Assembly (NCBI GenBank): GCA_024641085.1
Contig: JAHEDT010000003.1
Span: forward strand, 1 to 64,000
Source: Geobacteraceae bacterium
GTDB taxonomy: Bacteria > Desulfobacterota > Desulfuromonadia > Desulfuromonadales > BM103
Reading direction: 5' to 3'
Length of the DNA: 64,000 nucleotides
Below the pieces are notes generated by a model. It was not told where the DNA came from. It ran no database searches and saw only the letters and a list, made by a program, of their open reading frames with translations. How positions within the stretch are numbered: position 1 is the first letter of the stretch; every line of letters begins with the position of its first letter. Shown piece by piece: positions 53,010-58,755 of this stretch. The translations under genes were made by a program, and so were the position numbers.

Positions 53010-53744
53010 CTACATCCCCATTGGCAGAAACACAACATTCTTGATGACGCTGTTGAACCCTCGCTCCCACTTGCCAACCACCGCGAAAGCCATCATGTCC
53101 TGAATGGCGATCATCTTGCCAAACGTTCTTTCGTAGCTCAGGTCCTCTTTTTCGCCTTGCTGGCTGTTGGACAGCAGGAGCCTTTTTCCGTCAGCGCCCC
53201 GCGCATTACTCAACCGCGCAGCAAGCACTTCGATATTGCGCGCTGAATTGAACAGCGACTGGCCATCAAGGGAGTCGAACATGAACTGTTCGCTCTGCCA
53301 GTTGTAGGCGCAGCGCACCATCCCCACCAGTCCCGCCATCAGGGCAAAAACGCGATCCCCTTTGTATCCCGGATCGAAGGCCAGGTCCAGGGCCGCCGTA
53401 CCCTGCAGCTGCTGCAATTCCTTGTAGACCAGTCGCCCGGGCGTGTCGAAAATCTGGTTCTGGCGCTGTCCGATCGACATGCCGTTGACTTTGTCCAGTT
53501 CGTGCGGGTTGCGTTTATATAGCTTGACCAGCAACTCCTCCATAAGCATGTTCATCTCGCGCAGGCTGGTATCGGCAATCATGTCGACATCGGATTTGGC
53601 GAGGGAGTTGAGTGCCGAAGTGTCTATCGGGTTGCGGCACGCGGATAAACCCACCAGCGAAATCAGCAGACAGAGCATCAACATCCACCGGAGGATGCTT
53701 CGCGAAGCACTCCGATTCGAACCTTTAGCGCAGTAAATGGACAC
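53010..53744 (-). CDS. Putative lipoprotein of unknown function, coupled to the CBS-DUF294 gene
   Basis: A 244-residue protein with an extended basic leader, a hydrophobic core (MLMLCLLISLVGLSAC) and the lipobox LSAC. The mature part is largely helical and polar (MNMLMEELLVKLYKRNPHEL; FDSLDGQSLFNSARNIEVLA) and matches no family I can name. The start is GTG at 53744 with GAGGG about 9 bases upstream; it overlaps the stop of the CBS-DUF294 gene by 20 bases, so the two are probably co-translated and may share a pathway. Confidence 0.75.
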   Translation of the reverse strand: MSIYCAKGSNRSASRSILRWMLMLCLLISLVGLSACRNPIDTSALNSLAKSDVDMIADTSLREMNMLMEELLVKLYKRNPHELDKVNGMSIGQRQNQIFDTPGRLVYKELQQLQGTAALDLAFDPGYKGDRVFALMAGLVGMVRCAYNWQSEQFMFDSLDGQSLFNSARNIEVLAARLSNARGADGKRLLLSNSQQGEKEDLSYERTFGKMIAIQDMMAFAVVGKWERGFNSVIKNVVFLPMGM

Positions 53745-55164
53745 GGAAGTGGACCCTCAGGAACTCGTGGAATTCGTTGATCTCTTCGAAAGCAAGCTTC
53801 AAACGACCTTTTTCCATATGATTGAGCTTGGCCAGGGTGATGAAATTGCTCGGTACCTTGCCAGCCTTGATATTCTCCACCTGGCAGCGTAGGCGGAGAA
53901 AAACCAGGAAATTATAACTGGCTTCGAGGTTCTCGGCCAGTTTGCGTTTCAACACGCCCTTCTCGGACAGGGCCTCGATCCGCTCACGGGTGCCTCCGGT
54001 CATGATTCCAGCCTCCATGGCCAGGGCCTTGACCCCCTCGGTGATGGCAAAAATGCCGGCCTTTTTGACATCGAGTTGGCCACGATGCTGATCACTGTGT
54101 TTCACCTTGATGGCGCCGAACAGGCCAAGCGGCGGCCTGAAGCGGTTGACATTGGCAGCCGAGCGCGTCAGGAACATTTTTTCCCGGCTGAAATGTGCGG
54201 CGAGCATTTCCTTGAGACCTTCCTCCAGGCCCGGGTCGCCGGAAATGGTGCGCAGGTCGAAGAACATGCTGCCATTGAGAATATTTTCCGGCCGCGGGTT
54301 GGTCAGCCAATCGTTCAGGGTCTCCTGCCATGCACTGAAACTTCGCCTCCAGAAGGGACTTTTCGCCATGATGCCGCCGGGACAGGCCGGCACGCCAATC
54401 TGGATAAGCCCATCAATTAACTTTTCTGAAAAGGCCTCGATTCTGGATATTTCGTCAGCAGAGAGGTCATCGGCATAAATAATGGCATTATCCTGATCGG
54501 TGGTCAACGTCTGCTCCCGCCGGCCCTCGCTACCGAGAACAATGAAGGCAAAACGTTCAGTCAGGTCAGAGAACTGTTGCACCCGCAACAGAGTGATCCA
54601 GCGCATGAGCAGCTGATCGTTCAAAAGAGCAATCATTGTCACCAGGACGCGCGTGGGGACTCCTGTCCCGACCAGGTGAAGAACCAGCGCCTGGATCTGT
54701 TTGTGCTGCTCCTGCAATTCACTGATCGTCTGAGCTTCTTCTATGTCACGAATAAGCTTTTGGGGAGAATTGGTCCGCAACCGCAGGATATCAGAATCAG
54801 TAATGATACCCGTCAACTTTTGGTTGCCATCAATGACACAGACACGGTGGATATTGTTCTTGGATATGAGATAAAGGGCCTCGAAAATAAAATCATCCTC
54901 ACCGATAGTAATCAAGGGTGTATTCATGATGTCTGCAGCCGTGATGGTCGCGGGATCTATGCCTCTGGCTACAACCTTGTTGCGCAGATCCCGGTCAGTA
55001 ACAATACCGACCGGCTGCGGCCCTTCACAGACCACCATGCTGGATATGCCCTGAGCACTCATCTCTGCCGCAACTTTCAAGATGGGATCTTTCAAGGCAC
55101 ATGTTGCAACAGATTTCCGGCAGTAGTTCTTGACGGGTTGAAACAGGAGATTGATTTCAGGCAT
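53725..55164 (-). CDS. CBS-pair and DUF294 nucleotidyltransferase-like protein
   Basis: The 479-residue cytoplasmic protein has two CBS domains (about 12-125; SMVVCEGPQPVGIVTDRDLR and HRVCVIDGNQKLTGIITDSD), a DUF294 nucleotidyltransferase-like domain (about 140-290) with LGSEGRREQTLTTDQDNAII, which keeps the GlnD-like GSxGRxE...D.D pattern, and a DUF294 C-terminal substrate-binding domain (about 320-475). Such proteins are thought to be nucleotide- or metabolite-sensing signal transducers and in some genomes adjoin an exonuclease or an acetate/solute symporter; neither is here. The ATG at 55164 has AAGGA 7 bases upstream; a TTG at 55179 is the alternative. Confidence 0.9.
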   Translation of the reverse strand: MPEINLLFQPVKNYCRKSVATCALKDPILKVAAEMSAQGISSMVVCEGPQPVGIVTDRDLRNKVVARGIDPATITAADIMNTPLITIGEDDFIFEALYLISKNNIHRVCVIDGNQKLTGIITDSDILRLRTNSPQKLIRDIEEAQTISELQEQHKQIQALVLHLVGTGVPTRVLVTMIALLNDQLLMRWITLLRVQQFSDLTERFAFIVLGSEGRREQTLTTDQDNAIIYADDLSADEISRIEAFSEKLIDGLIQIGVPACPGGIMAKSPFWRRSFSAWQETLNDWLTNPRPENILNGSMFFDLRTISGDPGLEEGLKEMLAAHFSREKMFLTRSAANVNRFRPPLGLFGAIKVKHSDQHRGQLDVKKAGIFAITEGVKALAMEAGIMTGGTRERIEALSEKGVLKRKLAENLEASYNFLVFLRLRCQVENIKAGKVPSNFITLAKLNHMEKGRLKLAFEEINEFHEFLRVHFRVHLLR

Positions 55165-55297
55165 CAGAAAATCCTTCAATGTTGAAGCAGTGTTCAGTAC
55201 CCTCCGGCAAAATTAATATACGCGGCTGTTTGAACAAACTATCGAAATCTATAAGTTTAACATTGTAAGAATTGGCGCCAATTTTTGTAAGACTCAT
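55157..55297 (-). CDS. 46-residue ORF coupled to the CBS-DUF294 gene
   Basis: MSLTKIGANSYNVKLIDF and onward to GFSDA, 46 residues, no membrane helix, one Cys. It has AAGGAG about 11 bases before its ATG and its stop lies 8 bases inside the next gene (TCTGATGCCTGA holds the downstream ATG and this stop), a layout typical of translational coupling. The codons are AT-rich. It matches nothing I recognise. It may be a small protein or a leader ORF whose translation controls the CBS-DUF294 gene. Confidence 0.45.
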   Translation of the reverse strand: MSLTKIGANSYNVKLIDFDSLFKQPRILILPEGTEHCFNIEGFSDA

Positions 55298-55589
55298 CAA
55301 AGGTTTCTTCTCCTTAACGAGGAAGAACCACCAACGGCGATTTTGCAAAACCGGATGTCTTCTGATAATTTTTTTAACTTCTGAAGCAGAGTATTCGGTA
55401 ATTTTAAATCAAGCAAATACGACAGAACTTTATCACATTCCTCTCAGCGATTAACAATGAGATAAATTCTTTTCCACCGAGTACGACATTGATCGCATCA
55501 GTAAGATTTCGTTTCGAAAACGTTTTTAGTTAAAACCTCGTCTACAGAATTTAAGTGATCGGGGCCGTCCGCGCCGGCCGCCGTCCCGC
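55298..55589. other. AT-rich non-coding stretch
   Basis: About 290 strikingly AT-rich bases between the small ORF and the gene remnants. No ORF, RNA gene or terminator recognised. The promoter of the 55157-53010 gene group must lie here. The composition changes abruptly to GC-rich at about 55560. Confidence 0.5.
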
Positions 55590-55800
55590 CTAGCCCCCGC
55601 CGCCCCGGTGCTCGTCGAGCGTCTCCTCGGCGCCGGCCCAGCCGGCCGCCAGCGCCGGGTTCTTCGCCAGCCAGCGCCGCACTACATCGGGCGGTTGCCG
55701 GTTCCAGACGCAGGAAAAGTGCAGGCAGTGGTGGCAGTGGCTGGTGCGCAGGTACCGCACGAAAGTGACCGCCGCCACTGCCTGCCACACCCCCAGCCCG
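55590..55800 (-). pseudogene. 3' remnant of a GC-rich gene for a Cys-rich membrane protein
   Basis: The frame closing at 55590 encodes VWQAVAAVTFVRYLRTSHC, then HCHHCLHFSCVWNRQPPDVV and WLAKNPALAAGWAG. Nearly every third codon base is G or C, a sign of real coding in a high-GC background, unlike the neighbours. It looks like the last helix and cytosolic Cys-rich tail (CxxCxxxxC) of a membrane protein. The 5' part is gone: the frame runs straight into transposase-derived sequence at about 55800. I cannot name the family. Confidence 0.55.
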
Positions 55801-56116
55801 GCCACCAGCAGCTGCAAATGTGGAGGCCAGCCGCCGTAATCGCCGAACGGCTGGACGGCGATGACAGCGGCAAGCTGTCCTGCTTTGGCATCGAGCGCTC
55901 TTTTGAAATAATTAACGAGATGGCGTATTGGCAAAGCTTGCTGAGCAGCTTGCGGTTGTATCTGAAATAGATGCGCAGAGTATCTGACAGGGTGAATACA
56001 TACTATCGGTGCGGGACGGGCGAAAGGATGCAGTTGCGCAGCAACTCACCGAACTGGATGCCCTTCTTGGCGTGACCGCTCGGGCAGATGCAGTGCCCTT
56101 CCAGCTTAAAGGTAGA
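55800..56116 (-). mobile_element. Decayed IS91-type transposase fragment
   Basis: The minus strand encodes CICPSGHAKKGIQFGELLRN and ILSPVPHR, an in-frame TAG (56005-56003), then YVFTLSDTLRIYFRYNRKLL SKLCQ, and after a frame change AAVIAVQPFGDYGG and PPHLQLLVAG. In order and spacing this follows the zinc-finger/Y2 transposases of IS91-like elements as I recall them (CPSCHxKR..FGEWL, VPHRQYVFT.PK.LR.YFRYDRKLL, V.IQTFGD...HPHLHALV). The stop is one C-to-T change from the expected Gln codon. The N-terminus, the catalytic C-terminus and both ends are missing, so it is dead. Confidence 0.75.
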
Positions 56117-56132
56117 TTATCATGCGGCCCAC

Positions 56133-56174
56133 TTGCAAAAATAATCAGGGCTGCCTCTTGCGAGACAGCCCTGA
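56133..56174 (-). terminator. Intrinsic terminator after acnB
   Basis: TCAGGGCTG (56145-56153) pairs with CAGCCCTGA (56166-56174), extended inward by CTC/GAG, with a short loop. On the minus strand it is followed by TTATTTTTG. It lies about 50 bases after the acnB stop and is a clear Rho-independent terminator. Confidence 0.88.
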
Positions 56175-56223
56175 CGACCTGCTGTATTTAACCTGGTAAT
56201 CAGCCTGTTAATGCTGATGTCAA

Positions 56224-58755
56224 TTACTTGTAACCGGCCATCTCATCAAACTGCAGGTACTGGTAGATGGCGTCCTTCTTCGGTGCAACCTTCTCCTTGT
56301 AGACCGCCAGGTATTCTGCCGGGGTCGGCAGCTTGCCGAGGTTGGTGGTCACCGCACCGAGTTCTGCGGAACCGAGATAGACTCTGGCACCGTTGCCGAT
56401 GCGGTCGTCGAAGTTGCGGGTCGAGGTTGAGAACATGTTGACACCGTCGGGCACGCGGGCCTGGTTACCCATGCACAGCGAGCAGCCGGCAATCTCGAGA
56501 CGGGCGCCCATGGCGCTGTAGACCGAGAAGACCGCTTCATCCTTGAGCTTGTCCTGGTCCATGCGGGTCGGCGGGCAGATCCAAGTGCGCACAGCCGGAT
56601 TGAACTTCTGACCACGCCAGATTTCTGCCGCGGCGCGGAAGTGACCGATGTTGGTCATGCACGAACCGAGGAAGACATCCTGGATCGGCGTGCCGGCCAC
56701 CTCGCTGAGCAGTTTGACATCGTCAGGATCGTTCGGACAAGCGAGGATCGGCTCAGTGATCTCGGCCAGGTCGATCTCGATCACTGCGGCATACTCTGCG
56801 TTGCTGTCGGCTTTGAGAAGCTTGGGAGCCTTCAGCCACTCTTTGACCGCGTCGATACGGGTGCGCAGCGTCTGCGGGTCCTGGTAGCCCTCTGCGATCA
56901 TCTTCTCCATCAGGGCGATGTTGGAGCGCAGGTAGATACAAACGCTCTCTTCGGAGAGCTGGATGCAGCCGGCGGCCGCCGAGCGCTCGGCGGCCGCGTC
57001 GGTCAATTCAAAAGCCTGCTCGACCGAGAGGGCCGGTAGTCCTTCCATCTCGAGGATACGGCCGTTGAAGATATTGACCTTGTTCTTTTTCGGCACGGTC
57101 AGGTGGCCCTGCTTGATCGCCCAGTAGGGAATGGCATTGACCGCATCGCGCAGGGTGATCCCTTCGTTGAACTCGCCCTTGAAGCGCACCAGAACCGATT
57201 CGGGCATATCGAGCGGCATAAAGCCCATGGCGCCGGCAAAGGCGACCAGCCCCGAACCGGCCGGGAAGCTGATGCCAATCGGGAAACGGGTATGAGAATC
57301 GCCGCCGGTGCCGACCGTGTCGGGGAGCAGCAGGCGATTCAGCCACGAATGGATGACACCGTCACCGGGGCGCAGGGCAACCCCGCCGCGTTCGGCGATG
57401 AAGCCGGGCAGGTTCTTGTGCATCTTGACGTCGGCCGGCTTCGGATAGGCAGCGGTATGACAGAAGGATTGCATGAACATCGGCGAGAGGAACTTGAGAC
57501 AGGCCAATTCCTTGAGCTCGTCGGCGGTCATCGGCCCGGTGGTGTCCTGGGAACCAACGGTGGTCATCTTCGGCTCGCAGGCGGTGCCGGGCAGGATACC
57601 ATCGACGCCGCAGGCCCTGCCGACCATCTTCTGTGCCAGTGAGTAGTGCTGGCCAGCTTCCGGTACCGGGTTGACCGGCAGGGTGAAGATTTCGGTGGCT
57701 GGCAGTCCGAGGGCGGCGCGGGCCTTGTCGGTCAGAGCGCGGCCGATGATCAGCGGGATGCGGCCACCGGCTCGGAACTCGTCGGGGACGGTGTTCGGGC
57801 TGATGCCGAAGGTGGTCAGCAGCTTGCCGGCTTCGTCAGTGACTTCGCCCTTCTTGGTGTTGATGACGATCACGTCGCCGGTATTGAACGCGGTAACGTC
57901 CATCTTTAGGGGCAGGGCACCTGAATCCTGGGCCGTATTGAAGAAGATCGGGGCGATGACGCCGCCGATGATCACGCCGCCGGTCTTCTTGTTGGGAACG
58001 GCCGGAATCTCGTTGCCGATGTGCCAGAGCACCGAGTTGCAGGCCGACTTGCGGCTTGAACCGGTGCCGACCACGTCGCCGACAAAGGCGACCTGGTAGC
58101 CGTCGGCGCGGAACTTGGCGATGTCTGTGTTGCCAGCTGGGAAGCGGGTCTTGCCCATGGCCAGAGCGTGCAGTGGGATGTCGGGGCGGCTCCAGGCGTC
58201 GCCAGCCGGGGAGAAGTCGTCGGTATTGATCTCGCCGTCCACCTTGTAGACCTTGACCTTGATGGCTTCGGGTATCGCCGGCTTGTCGGTGAACCATTCG
58301 GCATCGGCCCACGATTTGATCACCTGCTTGGCAGCGGCGTTGCTCTTGGAGAGAGCCAGGACCTCATCAAAGCCATCGTAAACCAGTGTGATGCCGGACA
58401 GCGCGCGCGCAGCATCGTCGGCCAGGTCAGCAACCTTGAGAGCCTCGATCAGGGGCTTGACGTTGTAGCCACCAATCATGGTCCCGAGAATTTGCACGGC
58501 TTTCTTCTTGTCGATCAGCGGCGACTGCTTGCTACCCTTGAGAATCTCCGCCAGGAATCCGGCCTTGACTTCGGCTGCCGGGTCGACACCAGGTGAAACC
58601 CGCTCGGTAAAGAGGTTGACCAGGAATTTTTCCTTGCCGGCAGGCGGGTCCTGCAGCAGTCCGCAAAGCCCTGCCGTCTGCTCTGGGCTAAGTGGCAGGG
58701 CTGGGATCCCTTGGGAATTCCGCTCTTTTTCATGCATCAGATAAGTTTCGATCAT
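56224..58755 (-). CDS. acnB: Aconitate hydratase B (bifunctional with 2-methylisocitrate dehydratase)
   Basis: AcnB isomerises citrate and isocitrate in the TCA cycle and can act on 2-methylisocitrate. The 843-residue protein has the AcnB-specific N-terminal HEAT-like domain (about 1-160, ending in GGYNVKPLIEAL), the swivel domain (about 165-380, VYKVDGEINTDDFSPAGDAW; GTGSSRKSACNSVLW) and the catalytic core. The [4Fe-4S] cysteines lie in FLGSCMTNIGHF and AGCSLCMGNQARV. GGAGGAGAG directly before the ATG is a strong ribosome-binding site. It is monocistronic, with its own promoter and terminator. Confidence 0.97.
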   Translation of the reverse strand: MIETYLMHEKERNSQGIPALPLSPEQTAGLCGLLQDPPAGKEKFLVNLFTERVSPGVDPAAEVKAGFLAEILKGSKQSPLIDKKKAVQILGTMIGGYNVKPLIEALKVADLADDAARALSGITLVYDGFDEVLALSKSNAAAKQVIKSWADAEWFTDKPAIPEAIKVKVYKVDGEINTDDFSPAGDAWSRPDIPLHALAMGKTRFPAGNTDIAKFRADGYQVAFVGDVVGTGSSRKSACNSVLWHIGNEIPAVPNKKTGGVIIGGVIAPIFFNTAQDSGALPLKMDVTAFNTGDVIVINTKKGEVTDEAGKLLTTFGISPNTVPDEFRAGGRIPLIIGRALTDKARAALGLPATEIFTLPVNPVPEAGQHYSLAQKMVGRACGVDGILPGTACEPKMTTVGSQDTTGPMTADELKELACLKFLSPMFMQSFCHTAAYPKPADVKMHKNLPGFIAERGGVALRPGDGVIHSWLNRLLLPDTVGTGGDSHTRFPIGISFPAGSGLVAFAGAMGFMPLDMPESVLVRFKGEFNEGITLRDAVNAIPYWAIKQGHLTVPKKNKVNIFNGRILEMEGLPALSVEQAFELTDAAAERSAAAGCIQLSEESVCIYLRSNIALMEKMIAEGYQDPQTLRTRIDAVKEWLKAPKLLKADSNAEYAAVIEIDLAEITEPILACPNDPDDVKLLSEVAGTPIQDVFLGSCMTNIGHFRAAAEIWRGQKFNPAVRTWICPPTRMDQDKLKDEAVFSVYSAMGARLEIAGCSLCMGNQARVPDGVNMFSTSTRNFDDRIGNGARVYLGSAELGAVTTNLGKLPTPAEYLAVYKEKVAPKKDAIYQYLQFDEMAGYK

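Follow-up and report, generated by a model that had tools for sequence, protein, structure and literature searches.

The stretch between the acnB-like gene and the CBS-domain/DUF294 gene in the window (the whole 64,000 nucleotides of Geobacteraceae DNA that were analysed) very probably holds a pseudogene scar, made of foreign pieces that were acquired behind the acnB terminator and joined by a deletion. The lineage would have acquired at least two such pieces, one an IS91-family insertion sequence and the other DNA that carried the gene of a cysteine-rich membrane protein and came from an organism whose genes are GC-rich; they may have been separate or neighbouring before the deletion. Illegitimate recombination would then have deleted both ends of the insertion sequence together with approximately the first 70% of the membrane-protein gene, leaving a 0.3 kb internal piece of the transposase gene fused to a 0.2 kb gene tail. 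That the transposase frame runs stop-free into the tail would be a one-in-three coincidence. The same joint was found in no other genome examined, so the events can be neither dated nor polarised, and the order given here, like deletion as the joining step, is the one that we infer. The coordinates of all features are given in Table 1.

Table 1. Features of the scar and its flanks (window positions) and of related loci in other genomes.
Feature	Position	Strand	Remarks
CBS-domain/DUF294 nucleotidyltransferase-like gene	53725..55179	-	Flanking; PF00571, PF03445, PF10335
AT-rich stretch	55185..55559		GC 0.36
Whole GC-rich block	55560..55798	-	Tail plus ~30 bp behind its stop; sharp edge at 55559/55560
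Stop codon of tail	55590..55592	-	Near where relatives end; ORF 55590-55934
C-terminal fragment of Cys-rich membrane protein, ~65-68 codons	55593..55798	-	Profile hits with the window excluded; codon-position GC
IS91-family transposase gene, internal fragment	55799..56111	-	~Residues 81-189 of a 427-residue relative
Frame change in transposase fragment	55913..55925	-	Two protein matches overlap in different frames; DNA-alignment gaps nearby
In-frame stop in transposase fragment	56003..56005	-	Translation VPHR*YVFT
Terminator-like hairpin behind acnB	56144..56175	-	Intact; 14-pair stem, T-rich tail
acnB-like aconitate hydratase gene	56224..58755	-	Flanking; 843-aa ORF
Members of Cys-rich membrane protein family	L048 1848-2369; L049 ORF; L051-L069	- (L049)
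DUF6713 genes near Cys-rich membrane gene, two genomes	L077 826-1200; L078 4363-4740

The upstream flanking ORF is presumably acnB, judging from its sequence, and its 3' part shows 69-87% DNA identity to 33 of the 39 other genomes searched. The terminator-like hairpin behind it (read 56175-56144) forms the upstream limit of the scar. Measured between the acnB stop codon and the ATG adjoining the CBS start, the spacer is 1,059 bp long. The loci of 15 relatives were compared: six could be measured by script (171, 176, 195, 227, 287 and 857 bp) and nine had no CBS start in the bases examined, two of which (G014 and G019) gave acnB-CBS distances of 306 and 293 bp from DNA matches. The spacer of the window lineage is thus ~0.8-0.9 kb longer than in most of the relatives measured. 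The 857 bp spacer belongs to a genome of another genus (G008, L016); its content is unrelated, with matches of only 9-17 bp to the window spacer. As this spacer is also long, expansion at the window locus is not unique, and the site behind acnB may be one that collects insertions. Within the window spacer, clear resemblance to relatives is limited to the bases immediately preceding the CBS start (AAGGATTTTC). The extra DNA consists of the transposase piece, the GC-rich tail and an AT-rich stretch without a match. An abrupt AT-rich stretch had been noted in the first-pass annotation of this DNA and was confirmed, at 55185-55560. It matched nothing, either as DNA or as protein: neither 39 other genomes nor plasmids gave a match, and three of its frames gave none in Pfam. 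It is possibly a third piece of debris.

The first-pass annotation had read the minus strand here as a dead IS91-type transposase joined in frame to the tail of a GC-rich, Cys-rich gene. Translation reproduced the motifs that it had named, in the same order, with CPSGHAKK...RKLL in one frame and VQPFGDYGG and PPHLQLLVAG in another. The in-frame joint therefore stands for the second transposase piece, which shares a stop-to-stop frame with the tail (55593-56045, 151 codons), and falls for the first piece, which is in the other frame. The identification as a dead transposase was upheld by the stop and the frame change, and by DNA, protein and model matches, as follows. At the DNA level the fragment shares 71% identity with intact transposase genes from two genomes that belong to the window's own family (G012:C39, 228/319; G004:C75, 227/318); these genes score above cut-off for both PF14319 (Zn_Tnp_IS91) and PF04986 (Y2_Tnp). 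With the G004 protein (427 residues) as query, 55913-56116 matched residues 81-148 (E = 7.1e-21) and 55797-55925 matched residues 147-189 in another frame (E = 1.3e-9); the protein match thus extends to 56116. The fragment covers the end of the zinc-binding domain and the start of the Y2_Tnp domain. The first piece scored on NCBIfam NF033538 (E = 8.1e-4, 18.5 bits), whose curated full-length cut-off is 125 bits, a score that a fragment is not expected to reach; neither piece matched on its own in a Pfam scan.

Two motifs are altered in the fragment: CPSCHAKK of G004 (CSSCHAKK in G012) reads CPSGHAKK, and PHLHLLVAD of the intact relatives reads PHLQLLVAG. We take the lost cysteine to be a zinc ligand and PHLH to be the HUH motif, replaced by PHLQ in the fragment; the gene region that would follow this motif, with the catalytic tyrosine(s), is absent. 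On either side homology ends within the gene, whose front and back portions are missing and with them the oriIS and terIS ends, and no long repeat pair framing the piece was found. The intact IS91-like copies whose search had been proposed exist in G012 and G004. In the genome of the window itself, a search with the G004 transposase (E up to 1e-5) gave three matches, all of them fragments. A second decayed IS91-type piece in this genome (L085, G000:C136:7929-8222) corresponds to the C-terminal residues 331-427 (69%) with one stop, so that such elements were once present in the genome. The intact G012 gene is framed by two similar imperfect palindromes (L041 2631-2657 and 4116-4143; GGGGACACGT...ACATGTCCCC); the sequence GGGGACANGT was found neither in L042 nor in the window.

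The switch to GC3-biased sequence, expected at about 55800, was placed at ~55798. The tail has a GC content of 0.74/0.54/0.91 at the three codon positions; over the 41 long ORFs of the window, third-position GC has a mean of 0.66 and a maximum of 0.79. The tail comprises part of a last helix, a CxxCxxxxC cluster and a PxxAxxW end, and profile comparison shows it to be the C-terminal part of a protein of a Cys-rich, probably four-helix membrane family. Using a profile built from six relatives with the window excluded, the tail was the sole match among 1,721 six-frame segments of the window (20 residues or more), with E = 1.8e-8 and alignment to positions 166-217 of 221. A profile of two rows (L048 and L049) gave E = 3.0e-3 on the tail. 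The tail scored 32.4 bits, against at most 5.8 bits in 2,000 shuffled tails, shuffles without any reportable match being counted as lower scores. With the Cys motif masked, it scored 3.5 bits against at most 2.4 bits in 2,000 rough shuffles (1,450 reported), a small margin of ~1 bit; the two flanks were drawn independently in this control, so composition was only roughly kept. The match is to the C-terminal part of the family alone: the second Cys cluster (three cysteines) and the C-terminal PxxAxxW are present in the alignments, and the part of the gene that encodes the first helix pair with its CxHCPHY cluster is missing. The three cysteines of the tail are intact and its 68 codons carry no lesion; its decay is read from the truncation alone.

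The tail is foreign within its class, as the first-pass annotation had suspected: profile A3, run over 277 genomes of the class, matched this tail alone (E = 1.1e-6). Since the matches in the class are limited to the tail, horizontal transfer is the simplest explanation and loss in all other members is less parsimonious; judged by this distribution, the tail was most likely acquired horizontally. A full-length Cys-rich gene, which had been suggested as a check, was found as a family elsewhere in the phylum, and in the 277 class genomes the tail stands alone. The nearest relative found by shuffle score (L055) is identical at just 18 of 57 positions, and for this reason no donor is named. Direct searches with the tail gave no convincing relative, nor did a peptide scan of the genome contigs give any. 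The tail alone matched 139 of 194 class genomes at E up to 1 (its own included; best non-self match 1.3e-4); nine of these matches were translated, showed stops or no likeness by eye and were dropped. No convincing match to the tail or to its family emerged from plasmids (two records at E = 0.2-0.3), phages (two records at E = 0.8) or viral contigs. CbsA as an identity for the tail was non-significant in a library scan (E = 0.12-0.17).

To define the family, a looser DNA pattern (C-x2-C-x-H-F-x-C-x2-N-R-x-P) was run on genome contigs and gave five stretches. Two of the five are in plausible genes (L048, Desulfobacterales bacterium; L049, Desulfovibrio sp.); the frames that hold the other three (L046, L047 and L050) are 21-36 residues long, and these stretches were set aside as chance matches. 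A protein profile of L048 and L049, run over a sample of 395 genomes of the phylum, matched 19 places in 16 of them. These seeds were chosen with a motif derived from the tail, which biases the first step; the six proteins obtained from the full-length profile are free of this bias. The six family proteins L054-L059 share the P-x2-A-x2-W end with the tail, an end that is absent from the search pattern, and L054, L055 and L059 have NP there. The phylum of the Vibrio record L050 gave matches in none of 398 genomes, in a search that had no positive control. In the class of G278 the family occurs in one of three genomes, G278 itself.

In alignment A3 each of two helix hairpins is followed by a Cys cluster (CxHCPHY...C after the first, CxxCxxxxC after the second). 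The predicted structure has four long helices at low confidence (mean pLDDT of 50, two sequences) and its outline alone was used; the members are probably four-helix membrane proteins. From the cysteines a metal or redox role might be guessed. No significant Pfam or NCBIfam model was found for the members scanned and no PDB relative was found by sequence, and the family appears to be uncatalogued. Matches of members to DUF2244 (E = 0.75), to TonB-like and two other models (E = 0.04-0.14) and to a coronavirus NS7B model (E = 0.07) were weak and non-significant. Inspection by eye of the ORF lists of ten loci showed no recurring neighbour of the membrane gene, save in one family of genomes. There, its neighbours include a DUF6713 gene (in G316 and G253) and an ORF for which Pfam gave no match; a similar-looking ORF was seen in G216 (L079 8962-9375).

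Three other explanations of the scar were weighed. The first-pass annotation had proposed rolling-circle (one-ended) transposition, in which an IS91-like element brought the foreign gene along and later decayed. An IS91-type transposase does adjoin DNA foreign to the class, and the related ISCR elements are credited with mobilising the genes next to them (PMC13393415), which counts in favour of such carriage; we nevertheless consider it unlikely. The transposase gene is interrupted by the joint at approximately residue 189 of 427, the scar has neither element end, and the two genomes with intact transposase relatives (G004 and G012) gave no match to the Cys-rich family. In the IS91-type arrangement, terIS is upstream of the transposase (PMC13393415). 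On that arrangement, the DNA picked up when termination fails would presumably be that past terIS, at the 5' end, whereas the tail is on the 3' (oriIS) side. Given a joint inside the gene and on the side away from terIS, an illegitimate-recombination deletion fits better than rolling-circle carriage.

A chimera of assembly or binning is distinctly less probable still. The genome is in 151 contigs and composition changes abruptly at the scar, but the window sits in a contig of 179,908 bases, the flanking order acnB-CBS/DUF294 is that of the relatives, and a misjoin of intact contigs would not be expected to leave such short, decayed pieces. We give least credence, and very little, to the frame 55593-56045 being a working chimeric gene (a domesticated fusion), that is, a new small gene of 114-151 codons in which a defunct HUH part and a membrane-anchored Cys cluster were retained as useful: the frame is free of stops and keeps the three cysteines, but no more than one genome was found to contain the tail, the opening part of the frame runs through transposase DNA in the wrong register, residues important to the transposase have changed, and the sole promoter-like site found on the minus strand (55291-55262) does not lie upstream of the frame.

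Intergenic debris of insertion-sequence fragments and gene tails is common. The scar, read as foreign pieces joined by a deletion, is an ordinary relic without evidence of function and presumably has none. The part worth keeping is the apparently uncatalogued membrane family: through the tail, a small group of Cys-rich proteins with a sparse distribution in the phylum came to light, without a significant model in the libraries scanned, and the tail suggests past transfer of this family into a class that yielded no intact copy.

Compared with known systems, the scar resembles the products of one-ended ISCR/IS91 transposition in that a transposase of a related family adjoins foreign DNA. It differs from them in having neither terIS nor oriIS at the joint, which falls inside the transposase gene and not at an element end, and in having the foreign DNA on the other side from that expected. 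To IS91-family transposases (NF033538; PF14319 with PF04986) it is linked by its NF033538 score and by 71% DNA identity to two intact members, and it differs in that no more than roughly a quarter of the gene is left, which has lost both ends and carries a stop, a change of frame and altered zinc and HUH residues. With respect to the Cys-rich family (L048, L049 and L051-L069), the tail lacks approximately the first 70%, has 18 of 57 residues identical to the nearest member found, and has a third-position GC of 0.91 compared with 0.31-0.72 in the six member genes measured; it matches the last ~52-65 residues of the family, including CxxCxxxxC and PxxAxxW, and ends at the same place.
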